Positions 22,566-32,248 of a stretch of DNA of 32,248 nt are shown piece after piece. Position 1 is the first letter of the stretch, and the number at the start of each line of letters is the position of its first letter. This stretch comes from Verrucomicrobiota bacterium. Its GTDB lineage: Bacteria; Verrucomicrobiota; Verrucomicrobiia; Limisphaerales; Fontisphaeraceae. A program made the translations under genes and the position numbers. The notes beneath the pieces were generated by a model. It saw only the letters and a program-made list of their open reading frames with translations, had not been told where the DNA came from and did not search any database. Location of the stretch: contig JBAXGN010000085.1 of the NCBI GenBank assembly GCA_037139415.1, positions 1 to 32,248 of the forward strand, read 5' to 3'.

Positions 22566-23723
22566 TTATCCCGGTGCGACCCCGCGTTTGCGCTCCACTA
22601 ACTCGCGATAAATTTCCAAATGTCGTTGGGCGACGGTTTTCGGGTGATACCGTTGGTGGGCTTCCGCCAGTCCTTGCTGTGCCAGCCGGGCGGCCAGCGC
22701 GGGATCGTTGAGCAGCCGCTCCACTGCCTGAAGCATGCTCCCACCGTCATGCGGGTTGCATAAGAGCCCCGTCTGGCCATCCGCCACCAGGTCCGGCACC
22801 CCGCCCACGTTGGCGGCGACCAACGGGATGCCCGCCGCCTGGGCTTCCAGCACCACCATGGGACAGTTATCTTCCAGGGAGGAAAGGACGAGCGCGGAAG
22901 CCCGCTGATAGAATTGCCACACGCTTTCCCGCGGAATCGCCCCGGCATACTCGCACCAGGGGTTGGTCTTGACCAAGTCCAGAAACTCGCGCGCATAGGC
23001 GTCCTGCGGATCATGGGACCCCACAAACACCAGCCGAAAGGGTCGCCGGGCGGCCAGCGGCTGCAAGGCGCGAATCAAGGAATTCTGGTTTTTCAGGGGG
23101 CAAATGGTGCTCACGCAAAGGACGACCGGCACCGGCTCCGGCCGCCGGGGCAGGCCAAACAGCGCGGCATCCACCGCATTGGGGATCAACCAAGTGCGTG
23201 GAGTCAGGGCTTGGACCAGGCTCTCCGTGTAACGGCTGATGCAAACTACCCCATCGGTGCGCGGCAGCACAAACGCTTCCAGCCGCGCCGCCGCCCATTG
23301 GTAACTCAGCCACGACGCCTGGTTGCCCGCGGCAATTTTCCGCATGTTGCCGTGAATGGTCAGGACGTTGGGAAACCGGGAAAACACGGCGCTGATCGCA
23401 CTATCGCGTTCCGTGCCCTGACCGTGGACAATTTCCGGCTGCAGTTCCGCCAGTTTTTTGCGGGTGGCCCGCACACACCCCTGATAGGCCGTTCGCAGCC
23501 AGCCGAATTGCGGCACCACCACGCTGTGAAACCAGATGTTGCCGGCCAGTTTGGCCGGCGACGCCATGGGGCGTTTCGTGCAGGAAACCACATGCACTTC
23601 CGCCTCCGGAATCAGGGCGAATCCGTTCAAAAGATACGTCACGGCCGATCCAAAGTAGGGGGTCGGTTTGGCGTATTCACAAAACATTTCCCGATTGTCA
23701 ATCGTCAGGATGGCGACGCGCAT
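22566..23723 (-). CDS. Glycosyltransferase family 4 protein
   Basis: 385 residues. The C-terminal GT-B half holds the GT4 signature: SLEDNCPMVVLEAQAAG with Glu residues spaced as E-x7-E, then PLVAANVGGVPDLV, and a C-terminal helix with AEAHQRYHP. The N-terminal half starts MRVAILTIDN and has a NVLTIHGN segment. It should transfer a sugar from a nucleotide donor to a glycan or lipid acceptor at the cytoplasmic face. Start ATG 23723 has no clear ribosome binding site. It is the middle gene of the polysaccharide operon. Confidence 0.88.
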   Translation of the reverse strand: MRVAILTIDNREMFCEYAKPTPYFGSAVTYLLNGFALIPEAEVHVVSCTKRPMASPAKLAGNIWFHSVVVPQFGWLRTAYQGCVRATRKKLAELQPEIVHGQGTERDSAISAVFSRFPNVLTIHGNMRKIAAGNQASWLSYQWAAARLEAFVLPRTDGVVCISRYTESLVQALTPRTWLIPNAVDAALFGLPRRPEPVPVVLCVSTICPLKNQNSLIRALQPLAARRPFRLVFVGSHDPQDAYAREFLDLVKTNPWCEYAGAIPRESVWQFYQRASALVLSSLEDNCPMVVLEAQAAGIPLVAANVGGVPDLVADGQTGLLCNPHDGGSMLQAVERLLNDPALAARLAQQGLAEAHQRYHPKTVAQRHLEIYRELVERKRGVAPG

Positions 23724-23756
23724 AGTCGTTGATTAAAATTTAAGTCACGCCGGGGT

Positions 23757-24992
23757 TCAAGTCACATTCTGCAGCGCGGCGCGCATCCGTTCCACATACC
23801 GCGCCACCTCATGATGTTGCAGGAACCAGGCCCGCAACCCCAGCCCGGACTCCGTTTGCAGCAGCGCCCGGATCGCCGCCGCCACCTGTGCCGGCGCCTG
23901 CGGCTCCGCCAAGCCGGGATAGCCTGCCGGAAACAAATCGGGAATGCCACGCCAGCGCGTGGTGGCGGCGGGCACACCAAAGGCCATCGCCTCCGCGAGC
24001 ACCAGGCCAAAACTCTCCGATTCATAGTACGTTGGGAAACAAAAAACGTCCGCTTCCAAAAACAACCGTCGCTTCGTCTCGCCCTGCACGAACCCCGCAT
24101 ACGTGACCACGCCCTTCAAGTCGGCTTGCTGACAGCGCAGGTCGAACTCGGCGCGTTCCGATTCCCGCCAGAATTTTCCCGCCACCGTCAGGCACACGCG
24201 CAGGGGGGAGTTTTCGGCGGCCAACTCCTGCCGGAGCCTGGCCACGGCCTCCAGCGTGTCAAAAAGCCCTTTGGTGCGGGTGCAGAGCGCCAGGAACAGG
24301 AGCTGCACCGTTTCCGGATCGCCGCCCGCCGCCTGCCGTTCTGCGGCACCGAGCGTTTCCTGCCGCAGTAATTTTGCGCGCGCCGCGAACCGGGCGCGCC
24401 GGCGAAGTTCAATCTGCGCCACAAAATTGGCAGCCGGGTCAGGAATGCCACACGTGACAATCGTCTCCGCGCGGGCCGCCAACACCTTCAGGCCCAAGTC
24501 GTTGGCCCGGCTCTGAATGATGCTTAAATCGGCCCCGCCAAGCAACCGTTGGCTGATCCAGCGCTCCCATGGATAAGCCCGGTTTTCCAGCCAGTCTCCC
24601 AACCCGGCGGCATGCCAGTGAAGAATCAGCCGGGCATAAAACGGGCGGCACAGCGCCATCACCAGCCAGTCCCGATACAAGGCCTGCCGCCCGGGCGGGG
24701 CGGGCACATAGTAAAAATGCCGCACATGATGGCGAAAGCGGCAGCCAATGGCTTCCAGACAATACCGTAGCAACCGGGGAACTTTGGCCCAAGCCCGCTG
24801 GCCGATGTCGTCCAAATCCCGGGAAAGCCGGGCATCCACATGATAGCACGCGATGGCGGGTTCCTCATGGGTTGAGGCGTGTGCCGCCGGTCGCCGCCGC
24901 TGGTCCCCCCCCAAGTGTTCAAGCAACAACTCCACCATGTAACTCTGCCCATGGTGTGGCGGCGGCTTATGTGCAAATACCAGTAACTTCAC
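23757..24992 (-). CDS. Glycosyltransferase family 4 protein
   Basis: 411 residues from GTG 24992, with AAGAAG a few bases upstream. N-terminal MKLLVFAHKPPPHHGQS shows the glycine/His-rich donor-domain loop of GT-B enzymes. The C-terminal half has ESFGLVLAEAMAFGVP (E-x7-E type) and RGIPDLF. Likely a hexosyltransferase in surface polysaccharide or glycolipid synthesis; donor and acceptor unknown. First gene of the run GT4-GT4-acyltransferase. Confidence 0.87.
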   Translation of the reverse strand: MKLLVFAHKPPPHHGQSYMVELLLEHLGGDQRRRPAAHASTHEEPAIACYHVDARLSRDLDDIGQRAWAKVPRLLRYCLEAIGCRFRHHVRHFYYVPAPPGRQALYRDWLVMALCRPFYARLILHWHAAGLGDWLENRAYPWERWISQRLLGGADLSIIQSRANDLGLKVLAARAETIVTCGIPDPAANFVAQIELRRRARFAARAKLLRQETLGAAERQAAGGDPETVQLLFLALCTRTKGLFDTLEAVARLRQELAAENSPLRVCLTVAGKFWRESERAEFDLRCQQADLKGVVTYAGFVQGETKRRLFLEADVFCFPTYYESESFGLVLAEAMAFGVPAATTRWRGIPDLFPAGYPGLAEPQAPAQVAAAIRALLQTESGLGLRAWFLQHHEVARYVERMRAALQNVT

Positions 24993-25067
24993 TGCTTCTT
25001 GCCCAACATAATGAATACAGCCCGGCGCAAGTCAAGCCACACACAGTGGATTTTCCAGAAACTCATA

Positions 25068-25250
25068 ACTGGTCACTTCAGCCTTATCCTGTTCATCCTG
25101 TTCATCCTGTCTCCAGTTTGCCATGTCCGGCCCCCATTTTTCGTCTTCATTTTTCTGCAAAATCAGTTTCATTCCGCAATCCGCAATCCGCAATCCGCAT
25201 TTGTTTATCTGCCATGTCCGGCCCCCATTTTTCTGTAAACATCGGTTCCG
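25068..25250. repeat. Composite intergenic repeat module, copy A
   Basis: In order: ACTGGTCACTTCAGCC; three TCATCCTGT-type units; CCATGTCCGGCCCCCATT; TTCTGCAAAATCAG; heptads (ATTCCGC, AATCCGC); and a second CCATGTCCGGCCCCCATT. Modules with the same parts in similar order lie at 27107-27370 and 31684-32000. The gap 24993-25360 has no gene. The rest of it may hold the promoter of the next gene, including an imperfect inverted repeat GCAAACGCAC/GTGTTTGC near 25297-25323. Confidence 0.8.
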
Positions 25251-25360
25251 CAGCCGCTGATCACCCATTAGATTTATTGGCCAATGTTTAGGCCGTGCAA
25301 ACGCACACCGAAAATGTGTTTGCTGCGCATCGGTCCCCAATGTAATCTTCCTTCTGTGTC

Positions 25361-25789
25361 ATGTTAGCTAAGCGCACATCATTCAATCCCAAGCGCCGCA
25401 TCGCCAGCGCTCCGGTCCAGGCGGACCTGGATCGCTTAGCGGACAAGGTGCACTATGGAGGAAATCCGGAGCACAAGCGGAATCCCGGTGACTTTGGGCT
25501 AACGCCGCCGGCGAGTCCCCGTCGCAACAAGACGCTCTGTGACGGAGTAGGGGTTTTTAGCCGTGCGCTGGCGCTGGAGTTGCTGCGAGATGGAATTCGC
25601 TGCGGCCTCGTAAGCGAATGGGATGGCACCGGGTTTCCGCAGAATGTATGGTCCGTATCGACGAACGGCATCCCGTTGGAGGCGCAGTTGGAGAACGCAG
25701 CCAACGGTACTTACCACGGCTACCCGATGCCGGAGGATGACGCATTTCGCGAGATTGTGATTTCCAAATGGGGGGCAACCCATGAGTGA
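25361..25789 (+). CDS. Conserved hypothetical protein, partner of ImmA/IrrE-like gene
   Basis: 142 residues, soluble, no signal peptide. The conserved-looking core is KVHYGGNPEHKRNPGDFGL followed by TPPASPR and KTLCD (about residues 30-66), and the C-terminal half has a FPQNVWSV strand, EAQLEN and YHGYPM. I recognise this as a recurring bacterial family of unknown function, not as a named domain. Its stop overlaps the next gene's start (ATGAGTGA at 25782-25789), so the two are translationally coupled and probably act together. ATG 25361 has no obvious ribosome binding site. Confidence 0.75.
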   Translation: MLAKRTSFNPKRRIASAPVQADLDRLADKVHYGGNPEHKRNPGDFGLTPPASPRRNKTLCDGVGVFSRALALELLRDGIRCGLVSEWDGTGFPQNVWSVSTNGIPLEAQLENAANGTYHGYPMPEDDAFREIVISKWGATHE

Positions 25790-27104
25790 CAAATTGCGCC
25801 TTGAGTTCGATTGGCTCAGCCTGGACGTAGGAAGCGAGATCGACCGGGCATTCGCCGCTTCCTTGGGCGTGGCCGTGGGCGAGGAGTACCTTACGCGGAA
25901 CGATGATTTGGCGGGCAGGACGGTGCGCAACCAGATTCGGAGCTGCGCTTGGCACCTTGCGGCCTGGCTCGCAGCGAACTGGTGGCGGCTGCGGTGGGAA
26001 CCTGAAATACCGGTGTGGTGGAAGGATGCCGACTGGCGCATGGCCCATAGCATGGGTAGCGCCGGGGGCGGATTTGTGTGGCCGAACGCGGTCTTTGCCA
26101 GTGACGGTGGCTCGCTAGAAATTGCCATGCGGCCCAAGAGCAAGAGCGTTCCCTATGAGCCCATCCGCTACCTCAACCATGTCCATGCCCGTATTGATGC
26201 CGCGGAATTTGAGCAGCGTATAGATGAGTTCATGGAAGGCGTGCTGTCGCGACTCGATTCGCTGGGTGTAAGGGATAAGAGGCTGGCTCAGTTGTGGAAG
26301 GAAATTTTGGCTGAGCGGCACGATCCGGATGCTTACGAGCGCCGCAAACTCGAAGCGATGGCGGGTTATGATCCCGACGAGGCACCTGATGAATTGCTAA
26401 AGCAACTTCTGGAAGACAAGGAGCAACTCGGCAAACGTGCGCTCGAAGAGGTGGCCACCGAGGCACGGCATGCGACTGGCGACGCTTTGCAGCCGATCCG
26501 GGAGCTTGGCAGATCGCGCAAGCCTAAAACAGGCGGTTTTTGCGTTTCCTTGCCAGATCTGGATAAATCAGTGTTGGCTCAAGTTGATGGCGACCGGCCT
26601 TGGCAGAGGGGGAACAAACTCGCACGCCTCGTGAGGCACGCGTGGGGCTTTGCCAAGAAGCCGATGAAGAACAAAACATTAGCAGACCTCTTGGCCACCA
26701 AACCTGCCATATTTACAGATGGGGCCACTGTGGGAACGCAAATGCCCTTTGGTTTGCGAACGGATGGAAATGCGGCGTGCCATATCTACTTTGATCGTCC
26801 GACCACTACCACCCGGCGCTTTGCCGCCAGCCGGTTGATTGGAGACCACCTCTATTTTGCCAGTCAAGAAAGACTCCTCCCGGCCACTCGTGCCAAGACC
26901 TCGCGCCAAAAATTTCAACGGGCATTTGCCCAGGAGTTTTTGTGCCCCGTCGATGCGCTATTGGAGAAAATCCAAACGACGCAGCCAGATGAATACGACA
27001 TAACTGAGGCCGCAGATCACTTTCATGTGTCGCCTCTGATGATTCGAACAACCCTGGTTAACAAAGGGGAACTGGAGCGCGAGGCGCTTGCGTGGAGGGA
27101 CTGA
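25782..27104 (+). CDS. ImmA/IrrE-like protein lacking the HEXXH motif
   Basis: 440 residues. The C-terminal third follows the ImmA/IrrE layout: R345-R346-F347 before a helix, then FQRAFAQEFLCPVDALL (about 378-395, compare FAAELLMP in IrrE), then ITEAADHFHVSPLMIRTTLVNKG, the winged/HTH-like end. Where IrrE has HELGH, this protein has R351-L352-I-G354-D355, so both zinc His and the catalytic Glu are absent. The N-terminal two thirds are unassigned: a Trp-rich part (about 55-90) and a charged helical part (about 150-240). ImmA/IrrE proteases cleave repressors. This one may be a non-catalytic sensor or regulator, possibly a toxin-antitoxin or stress pair with the upstream gene. The domain assignment is inference from motif order. 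Confidence 0.65.
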   Translation: MSDKLRLEFDWLSLDVGSEIDRAFAASLGVAVGEEYLTRNDDLAGRTVRNQIRSCAWHLAAWLAANWWRLRWEPEIPVWWKDADWRMAHSMGSAGGGFVWPNAVFASDGGSLEIAMRPKSKSVPYEPIRYLNHVHARIDAAEFEQRIDEFMEGVLSRLDSLGVRDKRLAQLWKEILAERHDPDAYERRKLEAMAGYDPDEAPDELLKQLLEDKEQLGKRALEEVATEARHATGDALQPIRELGRSRKPKTGGFCVSLPDLDKSVLAQVDGDRPWQRGNKLARLVRHAWGFAKKPMKNKTLADLLATKPAIFTDGATVGTQMPFGLRTDGNAACHIYFDRPTTTTRRFAASRLIGDHLYFASQERLLPATRAKTSRQKFQRAFAQEFLCPVDALLEKIQTTQPDEYDITEAADHFHVSPLMIRTTLVNKGELEREALAWRD

Positions 27105-27106
27105 TC

Positions 27107-27370
27107 GGTCACTGATAACTGGTCCCCTCAGCCTTGCCCCGTCCATCCTGTCCATCCTGTCCATTAGTCCCATGCGTCCCATTCCTCCCATTTTTCGTCT
27201 TCATTTTTATGCCAGTTAATCTTTTTGCCATGTCCGGTTCCCCCGTTTGTCTTCCCGTCCCATTTTCTGGCCTTATCCTATCCATCCTGTTCATCCTGTC
27301 TCCAATTTGCCATGTCCGATTCCCCTATTTTTCTGCAAAACCAGCTTCCTCCATCATTCCAAAATCTTTT
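27107..27370. repeat. Composite intergenic repeat module, copy B
   Basis: It begins 2 nt after the stop of the preceding gene with GGTCACTGATAACTGGTC, then CAGCCTTGCCCC, GTCCATCCTGTCC units, CCCATTTTTCGTCTTC, two CCATGTCCG-type segments and TTTCTGCAAAACCAG. Same components as 25068-25250 and 31684-32000. The gap 27105-27429 contains no gene. Confidence 0.8.
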
Positions 27371-27429
27371 CCCATTATCCCGCTCGACAAATGCTTGTGA
27401 AATGGTAAATCTCAATCCATAATTATCCA

Positions 27430-27726
27430 GTGCAAACAGTTGTGGAACAAAACTATCGCATATCAGGGCATGAATCTTTTCCGTGCCGTTATGCGTGGCT
27501 GCCTAAAGCAGTGCAGGGCGTGAGCTATGACAATCTCGTATTGCTCCGCAATGTGGTGTGCCGCTGTAACGTCAATATAAGCAAGGTTTACCATTTTGAA
27601 TGGCACAACTATTCCATACTGGTGATCGAAGCAATCCGGCTGAACAACTTTACTCTATCGGGCGACTCGATTGACGTCGCTCTATTCAGAACACAGCAAG
27701 AACGTGATAACGCTTTGGCTGCTTGA
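27430..27726 (+). pseudogene. Short DUF4007-like remnant upstream of PAPS reductase-like gene
   Basis: 98 residues from GTG 27430. ISGHESFPCRYAWLPKAV (about 11-28) resembles the N-terminal motif of DUF4007 proteins (SGHE-x-F-x-R-x-x-WL-K), which are normally about 300 residues and are often encoded beside PAPS-reductase-like genes. After about residue 40 the match is lost and the sequence stops soon after, so most of the domain is missing. The TGA overlaps the TTG start of the next gene by 4 nt (TTGA), so the reading frame may still serve translational coupling. It could instead be a real small gene of another family. Confidence 0.5.
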
Positions 27727-28529
27727 AAACACCGCGTCATATTCTGTGCATGTCGGGCGGCAAAGACAGTACCGCACTGGCCCTTTACATGCGCGACCGC
27801 GTGCCGCAGATGGAATACGTTTTTTGTGACACGGATAAGGAACTGACCGAGACCTATGATTATCTGAATCGGGTCGAGGCTTTTCTTGGCAAGAAAATTA
27901 TACGTTTGAATGCTAAGGCTGGTTTTGATCACTGGCTTGAGGTGTTTGGTGGGTACCTGCCATCACCCAACATGCGCTGGTGTACCAAACTCCTTAAACT
28001 CAAACCGTTTGAGGATTATGTTGGCGAGGAAACGGTCATCAGCTACGTCGGCATCCGATCTGATGAAGACCGATTAGGCTACATCAGTACCAAACCGAAC
28101 ATCAAAGCGGTGTTTCCGTTTAAGGATGACGGCATTGATTACGCGGGAGTAATGAAAATTTTGCAGGATAGCGGTATTGGCATGCCGCCGTACTTGAAAT
28201 GGGGTCGGACGCATTCCGGTTGTTTCTTCTGTTTCTTCCAGCGCCCCATCGAATGGGTTCGTCTGCTTGAAAATCATCCCGAGCAGTTTGAAGCGGCGAT
28301 GAAATATGAAAAAGTCAGTGATGATCCAGGCAAGACGTTTACCTGGAACGAGGGCATGCCATTAAGCGAACTGCGAAAGCCAGAAAACATCACTGCCATT
28401 AAACGTCGTTTTGGTGAGTTTGAGGAACGGCGAAAAGCCAACCGAGGTAACAAAAAGCTCGTCGAGGTATTGGCTGGTATGGAGCAGGATGATGATGGAC
28501 CAAAAGCTTGCCTGATTTGCCAACTGTAG
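27723..28529 (+). CDS. PAPS reductase / DndC-like PP-loop protein with cysteine motifs
   Basis: 268 residues from TTG 27723. S11-G-G-K-D-S16 is the PP-loop that binds and activates with ATP in the PAPS reductase/adenine nucleotide alpha hydrolase superfamily. R85-W-C87-T-x-x-L-K follows as in PAPS reductase-like proteins. C87, the pair C167-x2-C170 (HSGCFFC) and the C-terminal C263-x2-C266 could hold an iron-sulfur cluster, as reported for DndC, the sulfur-transfer ATPase of DNA phosphorothioation. It is unlikely to be an assimilatory CysH, because no sulfate-assimilation genes are near and the neighbours are HNH nucleases. The start overlaps the preceding short frame. Role in nucleic-acid sulfur modification or defence is inference. 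Confidence 0.8.
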   Translation: MKTPRHILCMSGGKDSTALALYMRDRVPQMEYVFCDTDKELTETYDYLNRVEAFLGKKIIRLNAKAGFDHWLEVFGGYLPSPNMRWCTKLLKLKPFEDYVGEETVISYVGIRSDEDRLGYISTKPNIKAVFPFKDDGIDYAGVMKILQDSGIGMPPYLKWGRTHSGCFFCFFQRPIEWVRLLENHPEQFEAAMKYEKVSDDPGKTFTWNEGMPLSELRKPENITAIKRRFGEFEERRKANRGNKKLVEVLAGMEQDDDGPKACLICQL

Positions 28530-28565
28530 CCGTGCTGTTAACAAGTTGAAGATTACAATAGTATC

Positions 28566-29507
28566 ATGAAATCCTCAAATGATATGGATTTTTTAGCCCT
28601 GAAATGGCTGGGAAAATTATCGCAATTAAGGACGGCAATCGGGGGCGAGCTTTGTAAAGGAAAGGCGCCACATAAGCCATTATTACTGCTCTCTTTGTTC
28701 GATATGGCTGAGGCAGGTATGGTGACCAGCCGCATGCTGACGCGCACACCAGAACTTGTTTTAAGATTCAAAACTTATGGCGCGCTGGTGACAGAACGCT
28801 GGCCGACCAAGCTCGATATGCGCATGCCGTTCTATTATCTCAAAACCCAGCAATTCTGGCAGCCGTTTACTTCACAACAGACGCCGGCAGCATCACCGGA
28901 AACATGCACACTGTGCGAAATGGACCAGGAATTCTTTACACTTCTCTCTGACCCGGTTTTTCGGGAAAAGGCGCGGTTGCTTTTGCTGTTCACTTACTTT
29001 GAACGCAAAGAAAGGCTGGCACTGCTTGAAAGCATGGGGCTGGCAACAAGGAATCTGGATACAATTGAATGGCAGATGGAAACCATTACCAAGGAGGCGG
29101 CGCAAGCAGCCAAACGCAAGGGCAGGAGTGCACGCTTTAAAGTGCAGGTTGTATCCACATATCAATTTACCTGTGCGCTAACTGGATTTCGCTGTTTGAC
29201 GGGGGAAGGAGCAGTGGTTGTTGATGCCGCACATATCGAACAATGGGCACGCTCACAAAATGATGAACTCACCAATGGACTCGCGTTGTGCAAGAACGCC
29301 CATTGGATGTTTGATGAGGGCCTCTGGTCTGTTGGCGGCGATGGCAGAATTATTGTCGCCAGGGAACGTTTTTCTGAATCCGGACCGCAAGACTTAAAAT
29401 TGGCGACCTATCACGGGCGAAGGTTGTGTTTTGCTGAGGGAGTGAAGTTACGGCCCAACATGGAAGCGCTAGAGCAGCATCGACATCATCACGGTTTTGC
29501 TTTATAA
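28566..29507 (+). CDS. HNH endonuclease with N-terminal sulfur-binding-domain-like region
   Basis: 313 residues. The C-terminal nuclease has C203-x-LTG, then D220-A-A-H223, N237 in LTNGLALC, and H246 in HWMFDEGL, an HNH_2-type core. The N-terminal part (about 14-105) has GKAPHKPLLLLSLFD (32-46) and ends in MPFYYLKTQQFWQP, resembling the sulfur-binding domain of phosphorothioate-dependent type IV restriction enzymes such as ScoMcrA. If correct, it would cut DNA carrying phosphorothioate or similar modification. A helical linker (about 120-190) joins the two. The sequence reads AT-rich: the 60 bases from 28561 contain 20 G/C by hand count. Start ATG 28566; ATG 28584 is also possible. Confidence 0.78.
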   Translation: MKSSNDMDFLALKWLGKLSQLRTAIGGELCKGKAPHKPLLLLSLFDMAEAGMVTSRMLTRTPELVLRFKTYGALVTERWPTKLDMRMPFYYLKTQQFWQPFTSQQTPAASPETCTLCEMDQEFFTLLSDPVFREKARLLLLFTYFERKERLALLESMGLATRNLDTIEWQMETITKEAAQAAKRKGRSARFKVQVVSTYQFTCALTGFRCLTGEGAVVVDAAHIEQWARSQNDELTNGLALCKNAHWMFDEGLWSVGGDGRIIVARERFSESGPQDLKLATYHGRRLCFAEGVKLRPNMEALEQHRHHHGFAL

Positions 29508-29516
29508 ACGCGCCAT

Positions 29517-31181
29517 ATGGATCTGGACAGTCTCCATTATCCAGAAAAGACACACTATCTGGGACAGGTGTTTTCGGACACCACCAACTCTTATAAGTTG
29601 GTGTGGTTTCTGGCTACTCTGTCCTTGCTTGAGCGGCGGCGGACAGATGAACTGACGATGGCTGATATACTTTCCGAAATGGCAATTGTCGCTTGGCATC
29701 CGGTGTGCCTTTTCCGTCTCTCGCTAGGAAGGCAGGATAAGTTGCAAGAGGTCATTTTGGACTTGCAGCGCGAACACAACTTGGACGCAACCGATGAGGC
29801 CTCAGCTATTCGATTTGTGCTTGGCGAACCCTCAACCTGCAAAGCAAAACTGGCCCAATTTAAACGTTATGTTCCGACGCGATTTTTAACCCCATGGTTT
29901 GCTGAGGAGCTGCGTCCAATACCAGATGCTCGGCGCGGGCGTCAGATAAACCACCTTGCAAAGAACAGTCAGAAATCCCTTATCTCCAGCCCGTATTGGA
30001 TTGACGGAGAGAGCATCCGATTCAACCAATCGTGGCTGCATTTTCTGACCGAAAATATGGGGGTTGTGCGTGCTTTTGCGGAACATCATTTTGCGCGCTA
30101 CTTGCAAACGCGTAATCCCAATGTGCCAGGCGTGATCAATAAACTTCATGCGCCAATTAATCGGCAGCTTACCGACGCACGTAAATTCTGGTGTTCAATC
30201 CGTGCGCAATTCAATCAAAGAGGCCAAAGCCGGGGTTTTAGAGACATTTATTCAGACCAGCCATTGGGAGACAGATTTACCATTGATCATTTTCTGCCCT
30301 GGAGTTTTGTGGTTCATGATTTGCTGTGGAATCTGACCCCCGTGGAGCAATCCACCAATTCCGCAAAAAGTGACAGGGTTCCTGATCTTGATACGTATCT
30401 TCCGCGACTGGCCAACCTCCACTATGAAGCCATAAAAACCGGCAAGAAAAATCCAAAGATACTCGAAGATTACACGGATTGTTTTCGGATCAGTCTCGAA
30501 CAATTGGCCACATTGAGTTCAAGCCAGATGGAGGCAAAGTTTTGTGAAGTCATCACCCCACAGGCGCAGATTGCCATGAATCAGGGATTTCAATCCGGTT
30601 GGAAGCTGGCTTCCAGAATGATTCCGTTGGTGATTTCCAGTGATACCAATCCAAACGCTGGCAATCCCGAGATTGAAATTTTACCGATGTTTGAAGGCCG
30701 TCATTTAAAGTCTGATTGCTTGCCATTCTACTCGCTCAAAGTCGCCGCAAGTGGATTTTTGGCTGGAGATGCGCCCAACCCGGAAGGCTATGTGGACGTT
30801 GCAAAATATGGTTTTACAAAGCGAATAAGTCCAGGGATGTTTGTTACGCAGGTCGTGGGTAAATCCATGGAACCAACCATTAAAGACGGGGCGTATTGCG
30901 TTTTTTGCAAAGAAGTTGGCGGAACAAACCAACGCCGGATTCTTTTGGTCGCAAAGCATGATTACACGGATCCAGAAACAGGGGACAACTATACGGTAAA
31001 GCGGTATCAAAGTCGTAAAATTGCCAATGAGGATGGTTGGCAACATGACAGCATTGAACTTGTGCCAGACAATCCAGACAGAAAAAAATTTCCCATCCTC
31101 CGATTTACACAAACCGACGAAGAAAATCTGCGTCCTATCGCAGAATTTGTCGCCGTGCTTAAACCAGCACCTAATAGTTGA
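29517..31181 (+). CDS. HNH-type nuclease fused to LexA/S24-like protease domain
   Basis: 554 residues. N-terminal about 1-200 is unassigned and helical. The middle holds a HNH-like core: R253-F-T-I-D257-H258-F-L-P-W, then W271-N272-L, then N281-x-x-K284-S-D-R-x-P, as in HNH_4-type nucleases. The C-terminal about 395-550 resembles S24/LexA peptidases: LPFYSLKVAASGF, then G448-K-S450-M-E-P with Ser450 as probable nucleophile, and Y-T-V-K495-R as probable catalytic Lys. No LexA-like DNA-binding domain is present. The S24 part may cut its own chain after a damage or phage signal, possibly releasing the nuclease; this is inference. It starts 9 nt after the previous stop and is followed 11 nt later by the HIT gene. 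Confidence 0.7.
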   Translation: MDLDSLHYPEKTHYLGQVFSDTTNSYKLVWFLATLSLLERRRTDELTMADILSEMAIVAWHPVCLFRLSLGRQDKLQEVILDLQREHNLDATDEASAIRFVLGEPSTCKAKLAQFKRYVPTRFLTPWFAEELRPIPDARRGRQINHLAKNSQKSLISSPYWIDGESIRFNQSWLHFLTENMGVVRAFAEHHFARYLQTRNPNVPGVINKLHAPINRQLTDARKFWCSIRAQFNQRGQSRGFRDIYSDQPLGDRFTIDHFLPWSFVVHDLLWNLTPVEQSTNSAKSDRVPDLDTYLPRLANLHYEAIKTGKKNPKILEDYTDCFRISLEQLATLSSSQMEAKFCEVITPQAQIAMNQGFQSGWKLASRMIPLVISSDTNPNAGNPEIEILPMFEGRHLKSDCLPFYSLKVAASGFLAGDAPNPEGYVDVAKYGFTKRISPGMFVTQVVGKSMEPTIKDGAYCVFCKEVGGTNQRRILLVAKHDYTDPETGDNYTVKRYQSRKIANEDGWQHDSIELVPDNPDRKKFPILRFTQTDEENLRPIAEFVAVLKPAPNS

Positions 31182-31192
31182 TGGATTAATTT

Positions 31193-31570
31193 ATGCAGGC
31201 AGCCTGTCCATTTTGCCAGCCGGGGAACAGTGATATTGCTCTGCAAAATCAATTCTGCTACGCCCGATATGATCGCTATCCAGTCGGCAAGGGGCATTTG
31301 TTAATCATTCCCTTCCGGCATGTGGCCAACTTTTTTGAACTAACGGATGCCGAACGCACAGCCGCATTTGAATTAGTGTGGCAGGCCCGTACAAAATTGG
31401 TTTCAGAACTCCATCCGGATGGTTTCAACGTTGGTGTGAATGTAGGTGCGACTGCCGGACAAACGGTCATGCATGTACACATTCATCTTATCCCGCGCTA
31501 TCAGGGCGACATGGAACGCCCCGAAGGCGGGGTTCGGGGCGTAATCCCTGAGAAACGAATTTACCGATAA
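31193..31570 (+). CDS. HIT family hydrolase
   Basis: 125 residues. C5-P-F-C8 opens the protein and H94-V-H96-I-H98 is the histidine triad, with H96 the expected nucleophile. GFNVGVNVGATAGQTV precedes it as in Fhit/HINT-type proteins. HIT proteins hydrolyse nucleotide phosphoramidates or dinucleoside polyphosphates. It is the last gene of the 27430-31570 cassette and closely follows the HNH-S24 gene, so it may process a nucleotide by-product or signal of that system; this is inference. It could also be an ordinary housekeeping HIT protein. Confidence 0.9.
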   Translation: MQAACPFCQPGNSDIALQNQFCYARYDRYPVGKGHLLIIPFRHVANFFELTDAERTAAFELVWQARTKLVSELHPDGFNVGVNVGATAGQTVMHVHIHLIPRYQGDMERPEGGVRGVIPEKRIYR

Positions 31571-31597
31571 TCGCTGCCGTGCTGGCGCCGCGCCGGG

Positions 31598-31683
31598 TCA
31601 GTTAATTTGACGGGCCACTTTCTTTTTGAACTCGGCGGGCGCGAGCTTGCCAGTGGCCAGTTTTGCCAGGGCGCAGCCCTCTT
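31598..31683 (-). pseudogene. Possible 3' remnant of a minus-strand gene
   Basis: Read on the minus strand, this stretch gives a protein-like tail, ALAKLATGKLAPAEFKKK followed by VARQIN and a TGA stop at 31598-31600. It runs straight into the composite repeat module at 31684, as if the repeat had cut the gene. The peptide is too short to name. Confidence 0.3.
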
Positions 31684-32000
31684 CACTGATAACTGATAAC
31701 TGGTCACTGACAACTGGTCCTCTCAGCCTTGCCCCGTCCATCCTGTCCATCCTGTCCATTAGTCCCATTCCTCCCATTTTTTCGTCTTCATTTTTCTACC
31801 AGCCAATTTTTTTGCCATGTCCGGCCCCCATTTTTCTGCAAAATCAGCTCCTTCTGCCTTTGTTTCGTTGCTTAATCATTCCGCATTCCGCAATCCGCAT
31901 TCCGAAATCGAGTGTTCCGCAATCCGCATTTGTTTATCTGCCATGTCCGGCCCCCATTTTTCTGCCGGCCAATCTTTCTGCAAAATCAGTTCTCCCTCCG
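31684..32000. repeat. Composite intergenic repeat module, copy C
   Basis: Starts with CACTGATAACTGATAACTGG and GGTCACTGACAACTGG, then CAGCCTTGCCCC, GTCCATCCTGTCC units, CCCATTCCTCCCATTTTT, CCATGTCCGGCCCCCATT, TTTCTGCAAAATCAG, heptads (31878-31930), and a second CCATGTCCGG unit. Same parts as 25068-25250 and 27107-27370. The interval 31571-32145 has no intact gene. Confidence 0.8.
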
Positions 32001-32145
32001 AATTTATTCCCTCCCGGAGGCAACCACCTTTCCTGATTTCATGTCACGCTCTCGCCCGTGGGTCATCACGGACCGCGCGTTTGCGGTCTGCCAGACACCG
32101 TGTGTCGCGACCCGCATGACTGAAAAACTATAACGCTAGAATACT

Positions 32146-32248
32146 ATGAAAGATCAGGATACCCGCGACCGTTTTGTCCAACTCCGCGCCCAAGGCTGGA
32201 GCTTCAACCGCATTGCCACCGAACTCGACGTCTGCAAAAACACCTTGC
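32146..32248 (+). CDS. Helix-turn-helix protein, N-terminal fragment (runs off window)
   Basis: ATG 32146 opens 34 codons that continue past the end of the window. RDRFVQLRAQGWSFNRIATE followed by LDVCKNTL has the spacing of a Hin/homeodomain-like helix-turn-helix as found at the N-terminus of transposases, terminase small subunits and small verrucomicrobial hypothetical proteins. AT-rich TATAAC and TAGAAT lie just upstream (about 32129-32140). The product cannot be named from this much. Confidence 0.55.
   Translation, partial: MKDQDTRDRFVQLRAQGWSFNRIATELDVCKNTL

Follow-up and report, generated by a model that had tools for sequence, protein, structure and literature searches.

Does a compact block of five genes from a Verrucomicrobiota bacterium, in which a sulfurtransferase gene precedes two nuclease genes and a hydrolase gene, represent a working system that writes phosphorothioate (PT) into DNA, or what is left of one? 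The block occupies positions 27430 to 31570 of a stretch of 32,248 nt (contig JBAXGN010000085.1 of assembly GCA_037139415.1), which was analysed at its full length and is called the window here. An earlier note on this DNA had listed five same-strand frames, namely a DUF4007-like remnant, a PP-loop protein of the PAPS-reductase type, an HNH nuclease whose N-terminus resembles a sulfur-binding domain (SBD), an HNH-S24 fusion and a HIT hydrolase, and had taken them for a candidate PT-linked defence cassette. The frames were found again at the same positions on the plus strand, on which the parts of the block, its repeats and the flanks shared with C313 are given as well, with a 4-nt overlap between the first two and gaps of 36, 9 and 11 nt thereafter, and every domain guess held. 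The best reading is not a new PT-writing defence but a decayed Ssp operon into which a type IV enzyme and a recurrent module of nuclease and HIT have moved. We assign a probability of roughly 0.6 to the view that the block is the remains of an SspB-SspC-SspD operon which lost its writer and now offers a slot to nuclease genes, type IV and other. Sequence comparison establishes what the genes are, that SspB and SspC have been lost and that the HNH-HIT pair recurs in damaged ssp operons.

The second frame (27723..28529) encodes an intact PAPS-reductase/PP-loop sulfurtransferase of Ssp systems. It carries the Pfam PAPS_reduct domain and matches the PADLOC model of SspD with E 1.5e-111 and 370.6 bits over profile positions 1-276 of 277, whereas its DndC score is weak (E 1.9e-05 over 46 residues). 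The protein had been described as DndC-like; the PADLOC scores correct this to the SspD type, and an identity as DndC or CysH is ruled out by scores far below that of SspD. A grouping with CysH or a tRNA enzyme, which had been named as the contrary outcome, did not emerge, the SspD score being far above that of any CysH or TrmU model. By sequence, PDB entry 21fy ('PptA') is the only solved relative at E < 0.5 (E 2.4e-5). A scan of genome contigs gave 206 SspD relatives, and 80 of them were retained. The eight nearest full-length proteins share 83-90% identity with the window protein and come from genomes filed as Verrucomicrobia, Nitrospira/Nitrospirales, Acidobacteria and, in one case, Bacteroidetes; the SspD of an intact operon, L021, is 90% identical. 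In near relatives with enough flanking sequence the order is SspB (~317 aa), SspC (~1153 aa) and SspD (269 aa), followed by a restriction module that is often SspF-SspG-SspH. Relaxed selection on SspD was considered and not taken up; the pairwise non-synonymous divergence (dN) of the gene, with silent sites close to saturation, resembles that of intact loci. The absence of Dnd partners that had been noted holds as far as tested: the DndC model TIGR03183 had no match in the genome, in a search whose control matched in five of 14 genomes and never above the cut-off.

The genes that precede SspD elsewhere are lost or cut short. Open reading frame 1 (ORF1, 27430..27726) begins with an N-terminal remnant of SspB (DUF4007) at 27448-27540, which is followed by ~64 further residues. 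In profile searches the DUF4007/SspB similarity is confined to residues 9-39, about 31 residues, and a genome search with the SspB of L021 returned this remnant as its sole match (residues 7-37). The Pfam DUF4007 model matched nowhere in the genome, and the control of that search also matched nowhere. A genome search with the SspC of L021, which was run without a positive control of its own, gave no match either. The SspA profile had no match within 24001-32248, IscS elsewhere not having been searched for, nor was SspFGH seen behind SspD in the window. We also considered a remnant of SspC in ORF1 residues 35-98, as suggested by a pairwise match (E 0.48) to the middle of SspC. This alignment is collinear over 57 of 64 residues and was counted as unproven: a profile of 56 SspC proteins did not match ORF1, whereas shuffled tails did match, and 93 of 500 shuffles equalled or exceeded the best pairwise score against ten SspC proteins.

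According to the accessible parts of PMC8092258, PT formation requires nicking by SspB, IscS can stand in for SspA, and SspFGH is toxic to cells that lack PT. Since SspB is reduced to about 31 residues, SspC was not found and nicking is reported to be essential, the locus very probably cannot write Ssp-type PT, judged by its gene content. The tie to DNA phosphorothioation proposed for this block is thus supported by SspD, the SspB remnant and the SBD-HNH enzyme; a working PT-writing cassette is not supported.

The last two genes of the block form a pair, HNH-S24 (29517..31181) and a HIT hydrolase (31193..31570; Pfam PF01230, E 2.8e-21, 76.4 bits). The nuclease combines an HNH_4 motif of the Cas9 type (PF13395, residues 253-289, 30273..30383) with a C-terminal, LexA/UmuD-like Peptidase S24 tail (PF00717, residues 413-527, 30753..31097). 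Its HNH part belongs to a family of ~375 aa in which D257 and H258 are invariant in ten aligned sequences, and its HIT partner has the HVHIH triad and, as a profile, matches solved HIT enzymes. Seven of the 384 genomes of the bacterium's own class carry the HNH family at no less than 49% identity over at least 345 residues, two of these (G449 and G542) being of one genus. HIT is the next gene after HNH in six of the seven; in the seventh (G473) the contig stops ~140 nt past the HNH frame and the HNH match has internal stops. Two cyanobacterial members of the family (L076, L079) have an extra N-terminal stretch that resembles a helix-turn-helix by eye. Viral contigs gave just two weak, S24-only matches to HNH-S24. 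An AlphaFold2 model of HNH-S24 from a 10-sequence alignment reached a mean predicted local distance difference test score of 52.6, with residues 362-554 below 50, and was not used; Foldseek found no PDB match for it at E <= 0.001.

The pair lies within ssp wreckage in four of the five distinct Verrucomicrobial loci with visible context, namely the window, L023, L141 and L101. L023 holds SspC residues 135-326 (from the contig start), a 154-aa gene, HNH-S24, HIT, an intact SspD, SspG from residue 260 and SspH; SspF was not found there. In L141 the order, as far as fetched, is SspB, SspC 1-629, HNH-S24, HIT, the end of SspC, SspD without residues ~29-189, a ParB-like gene, SspF, SspG and SspH. 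L101 has the N-terminus of SspB only, then HNH, HIT and the C-terminal part of a protein that is found with SspD at other loci. No ssp genes were found at L144, and in the sequence at hand SspD was not found beside the pair in L101, L144 or the 3.4 kb of L124. The pair does not depend on SspD, because it exists where SspD is broken (L141) or was not found (L101, L144). The five genes that had been noted as one cassette recur in parts: the complete set was present in no other locus examined, HNH-S24 and HIT stand with an intact SspD once (L023) and with a broken SspD once (L141), and HNH and HIT stand beside an SspB remnant once (L101).

At E < 1e-30, SspD is matched in 13 of the 384 genomes of the class. 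All three SspD-bearing loci with the pair have a broken or missing SspC, and all ten without it an intact one (Fisher p 1/286, calculated by hand). The ten pair-free loci have SspB, SspC (1100-1153 aa; profile search) and SspD all intact, which we regard as the ancestral layout, and no HNH, HIT or SBD-HNH was seen in their stretches of 13-17 kb.

A further indication that the site is a slot comes from contig C313 of the same assembly (G000:C313, locus L102), the flanks of which match those of the window at 81-84% in the same relative orientation. On the left, 27157..27472 (flank and leader) is 84% identical over 331 columns to L102 4235-3910; on the right, 31586..31838 is 81% identical over 275 columns to L102 318-44. 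Within the leader, 27382-27472 is identical to C313 at 86 of 91 nt and extends over the initial ~14 codons of the sspB remnant, beyond which C313 diverges. The cargo of C313 differs, being a 371-aa gene for which the search gave no assignment and a methyltransferase-HNH-S24 gene, and the same ssp leader therefore precedes two different gene sets in one assembly. C313 may be a second cassette or the sequence of another strain in the assembly. Of the 54 and 55 flank matches, counted with the self-matches, full-length ones occur at the window and C313 only, and the others are shorter, scattered pieces. Three cases show SspB truncated close to the start, at residues ~34-37 in the window, at 32 in L101 and, by leader DNA, at 14 in C313.

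Across phyla the HNH family is present in nine of the 80 SspD loci. SspC is broken in 7 of 14 loci with HNH versus 1 of 61 without, in rows that are not corrected for relatedness; the plasmid stretches extend 9 kb from the match, and some of the SspC genes from cyanobacteria are just split in two. This count took 75 of 109 scanned loci. L101, L118, L120, L124, L142, L144, L217, L219, L220 and L222 were dropped for want of ssp context, an SspB remnant in L101 and SspA in L220 aside, and the others that were left out did not reach an SspB coverage of 0.5, a limit from which window, L023 and L218 were exempted by hand. On plasmids, 13 regions were read out of 17 matched records. SspB, SspC or SspD lies near HNH in six (Hymenobacter, Synechocystis, Annamia, Cyanobacterium, Leptolyngbya, Geminocystis), SspA alone in one and no ssp gene in the remaining six, two of which reach the record edge or hold no more than a short HNH match. 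HNH relatives of cyanobacteria are also located between sspC and sspD. The Synechocystis sp. PCC 6803 plasmid pSYSM_M (L119) carries SspB, a short SspC (hidden Markov model coverage 0.49), a gene of the HNH family and SspA; SspD was not seen within 9 kb, and the opposite strand holds a LAGLIDADG gene.

These counts bear on the alternatives to a reused operon. The HNH family could serve Ssp systems as an accessory subunit for restriction or regulation and have been kept here after the core had decayed, and its presence in SspD loci of several phyla and near ssp genes on about half of the plasmid regions would be in agreement with this; L144 and the six plasmid regions that have no ssp gene and the association of HNH with broken SspC speak against it, and we regard this explanation as possible but doubtful. 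The pair could instead be a selfish, homing-type or otherwise exchangeable insert that settles in ssp operons and breaks sspB or sspC, with the leader as a cargo slot. This would account for its position in the wreckage of four loci, the cuts near the start of SspB, the cyanobacterial relatives between sspC and sspD and the way HNH presence tracks broken SspC across phyla. The break points in sspC differ, however (residue 326 in L023, 629 in L141), SspC is fully covered in 7 of the 14 HNH-bearing ssp loci, and the window flanks beyond the leader are a dispersed repeat, so that we consider such an insert unlikely. Some HIT enzymes act on phosphorothioate nucleotides, and one might imagine a sulfur system independent of SspB and SspC, in which SspD sulfurates DNA or nucleotides and SBD-HNH, HNH-S24 and HIT act on the product. 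Such a system is very improbable: SspD is indeed intact and conserved, and the occurrence of the pair with intact SspD in both the window and L023, where the pair proteins are 52-53% and the SspD proteins 88% identical, fits repeated assembly, but the pair also stands with a broken SspD or where none was found, the five genes are together nowhere else among the loci examined, and SspB nicking is reported as essential (PMC8092258, accessible parts).

We return to the decayed and reoccupied operon and its third frame (28566..29507, 313 aa), which is predicted to be a PT-dependent type IV endonuclease of the SBD-HNH type. The core of its SBD (28662..28871, residues 33-102, aligned to SBDHga1, 8h0l) reads HKPLLLL ... 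MPFYYL ... FW and contains the motif described in PMC7461809 (HKP..LL/PF-L-W); the HNH_2 catalytic domain (PF13391, residues 203-256) follows at 29172..29333. Residues 33-306 align to the NCBIfam model NF045808 'PT-DNA_restrict' with 82 bits, below the cut-off of 180, and all 15 aligned family members match this model at E <= 0.001. The single sequence matches the solved SBD 8h0l weakly (E 0.023), and a profile of 15 relatives, out of 20 sequences (the window's and 19 others), does so with E 2.3e-15 over 123 profile positions. H223, N237 and H246, which we take to be the catalytic residues of the HNH domain, are invariant in 15 sequences. Relatives of the enzyme are common: 81 of the 384 genomes of the class have some match, many to the HNH half alone, and a manual count gave 21 matches better than E 1e-46, including the window's own. 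Viral contigs contained no SBD-HNH relative. SBD-HNH-like genes also occur near S24-tail genes in three of 16 stretches (L108, L109, L116), and L116 has such a gene 9 nt behind an HNH_2-S24 gene.

The S24 tail is found on the HNH proteins of the window, L023 and L141; those of L101 and L144/L124 are tail-less. In L144 the HNH-HIT pair adjoins separate umuD-like and umuC genes, an arrangement that is, by its gene content, the unfused counterpart of HNH-S24. The Ser and Lys of the S24 domain (G-K-S-M, V-K-R-Y) are kept in all 24 aligned domains, and an Ala-Gly or Cys-Gly scissile site was recognised by eye in 22 of them; at this place the window has Ala-Ser, and the stand-alone UmuD-like protein of L144 has Pro-Gly. 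A Pfam scan of tail relatives found 15 proteins, including the window's, in which an S24 tail stands behind another identified domain: HNH_4 (1), methyltransferase plus HNH_4 (3), Schlafen-g3 helicase (4), Methylase_S (1), AlwI endonuclease (1), HNH_2 (1), ResIII/Helicase_C helicases (3, one of which begins with a HIT domain) and a DEAD/MZB helicase (1). Around such proteins ssp remnants were found by tblastn (E 1e-4) at L101 alone among 27 loci, C313 carrying leader DNA only, which is too short for this test; the S24 tail in general is therefore not tied to ssp.

Fusions of S24 tails to unrelated defence-type proteins were seen in the same phylum in L102, L103, L104, L106, L109, L110, L112, L116, L145 and L147-L151, the S24 score of L149 being below the Pfam cut-off. 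In L147 (5611-9312) a single chain of 1233 aa joins HIT, helicase and S24 domains, and its composition supports a link between HIT and S24. The main texts of PMC10853773 and PMC12839542 use neither the word 'S24' nor 'LexA', the accessible portions of PMC3488263 and PMC7159879 contain nothing on S24 tails, and no published description of the HNH(-S24) plus HIT module was found in the open-licence literature. One might go further and assume, as a tentative and rather unlikely extension, that effectors with a LexA/UmuD-like self-cleaving tail tied to DNA damage are spread through the phylum, comprising HNH, methyltransferase-HNH, Schlafen-type helicase, AlwI-type and helicase restriction proteins, and that the HNH-S24/HIT branch settles in PT operons and disables them, with the abandoned leader serving as a cargo slot; a locus that wrote PT would thereby be turned into one that attacks DNA, PT-marked DNA included.

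For the reused operon we propose the following course. SspB was cut to its first 30-odd codons and SspC lost, leaving SspD alone intact behind the original leader, and the vacated operon would have come to carry the SBD-HNH, HNH-S24 and HIT genes. The host would no longer write Ssp-type PT marks, and SBD-HNH could restrict PT-marked invaders and be safe for a PT-free host. LexA and UmuD self-cleave with RecA. HNH-S24 presumably cuts DNA, and its tail might by analogy cleave itself upon a DNA-damage signal and so switch the nuclease on or off. HIT might clear away a nucleotidyl product or adduct that the pair generates, and SspD would be either a relic or a co-opted gene.

Several observations weigh against this proposal. 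SspD shows no signs of decay (dN 0.06-0.10 against L021-L028, at near-saturated silent sites) and may, by this measure, still be functional in something; with silent sites so close to saturation, the dN test gives no date for when SspB and SspC were lost. The empty search for SspC, as said, came without its own positive control. One genome (G260) has an intact SspBCD and, ~14 kb away on the same contig, an SBD-HNH relative of 43% identity, so that an SBD-HNH gene need not mean loss of PT; such a relative at E < 1e-20 is present in four of the 13 SspD-bearing genomes of the class, including the window's. In L141 (G626:C4) SspC and SspD are broken, yet the SspFGH genes next to them read intact over the sequence fetched, which is hard to square with the reported toxicity. 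The usual scissile Gly is a Ser in the window tail (KVAASGF), with another Ala-Gly a few residues further on, and self-cleavage of this tail is uncertain because of the replacement. Finally, Rakesh et al. 2024 (PMC10853773, accessible parts) list wHTH(SBD)+SAD+HNH genes in the Dnd locus of 698 taxa, and since Dnd loci often carry wHTH+SAD+HNH, reading each SBD-HNH neighbour as a sign of PT loss is disfavoured.

The surroundings of the block agree with the earlier description of an acquired island. G+C per kb is 0.467-0.503 in 27001-32000 versus 0.562-0.626 in 23001-27000, so that the higher AT content holds in comparison with the upstream side (47-50% versus 56-63% G+C). The bracketing repeats are also real: a 77-nt repeat at 27107..27183 is 95% identical to a right copy at 31702-31778, which lies within the right flank common with C313, and short partial copies are dispersed across the genome. 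Immediately upstream (25361-27104) are two overlapping genes of 142 and 440 aa, the latter with weak matches to an IrrE-type peptidase (E 0.016) and to PADLOC RmrA (E 0.0012).

The locus shows a PT-modification operon caught after the loss of its writer, with sulfurtransferase and leader retained, and suggests that PT writers and other nucleases replace each other at one site. The two-gene module of HNH, with or without S24, and HIT recurs where SspC is broken, and the S24 tail makes a link between DNA damage and a restriction nuclease directly testable.

Among known systems the closest is SspABCD-SspFGH (PMC8092258, accessible parts). The window has a full-length SspD and the start of SspB, and its close relatives have SspBCD followed by SspFGH; it differs in the loss of SspB and SspC, in that SspFGH was not seen behind SspD and in the other nucleases that take up the site. 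The accessible parts of the 2026 BREX survey (PMC12839542) relate SspB, SspC and SspD to components of type 4 BREX. With Dnd systems the window shares a sulfurtransferase of the same superfamily, whereas the DndC score is weak and no DndC was found in the genome. The SBD-HNH enzyme resembles EcoWI/SprMcrA-type enzymes (PMC7461809, accessible parts) in its SBD motif, HNH_2 domain and length of 313 aa, and differs in its score below the NF045808 cut-off (82 versus 180 bits) and its position within a gutted ssp operon. Less than 3.6% of predicted PT-dependent enzymes are possibly associated with a dnd cluster according to the accessible parts of the same study (Lutz et al. 2020), which offers mutated clusters as one explanation; the window would fit that case. 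Compared with S24 domains of the LexA/UmuD type, which in 22 of 24 aligned domains have an Ala-Gly or Cys-Gly type of site, the window domain keeps Ser and Lys, whereas it forms the C-terminal tail of an HNH nuclease and has Ala-Ser as its site. The HIT protein of the pair has the HVHIH triad in common with FHIT, HINT and Ap4A phosphorylase and is set apart from these hydrolases by a conserved C-terminal GGVR..IP.K..Y stretch and by its close pairing with HNH.

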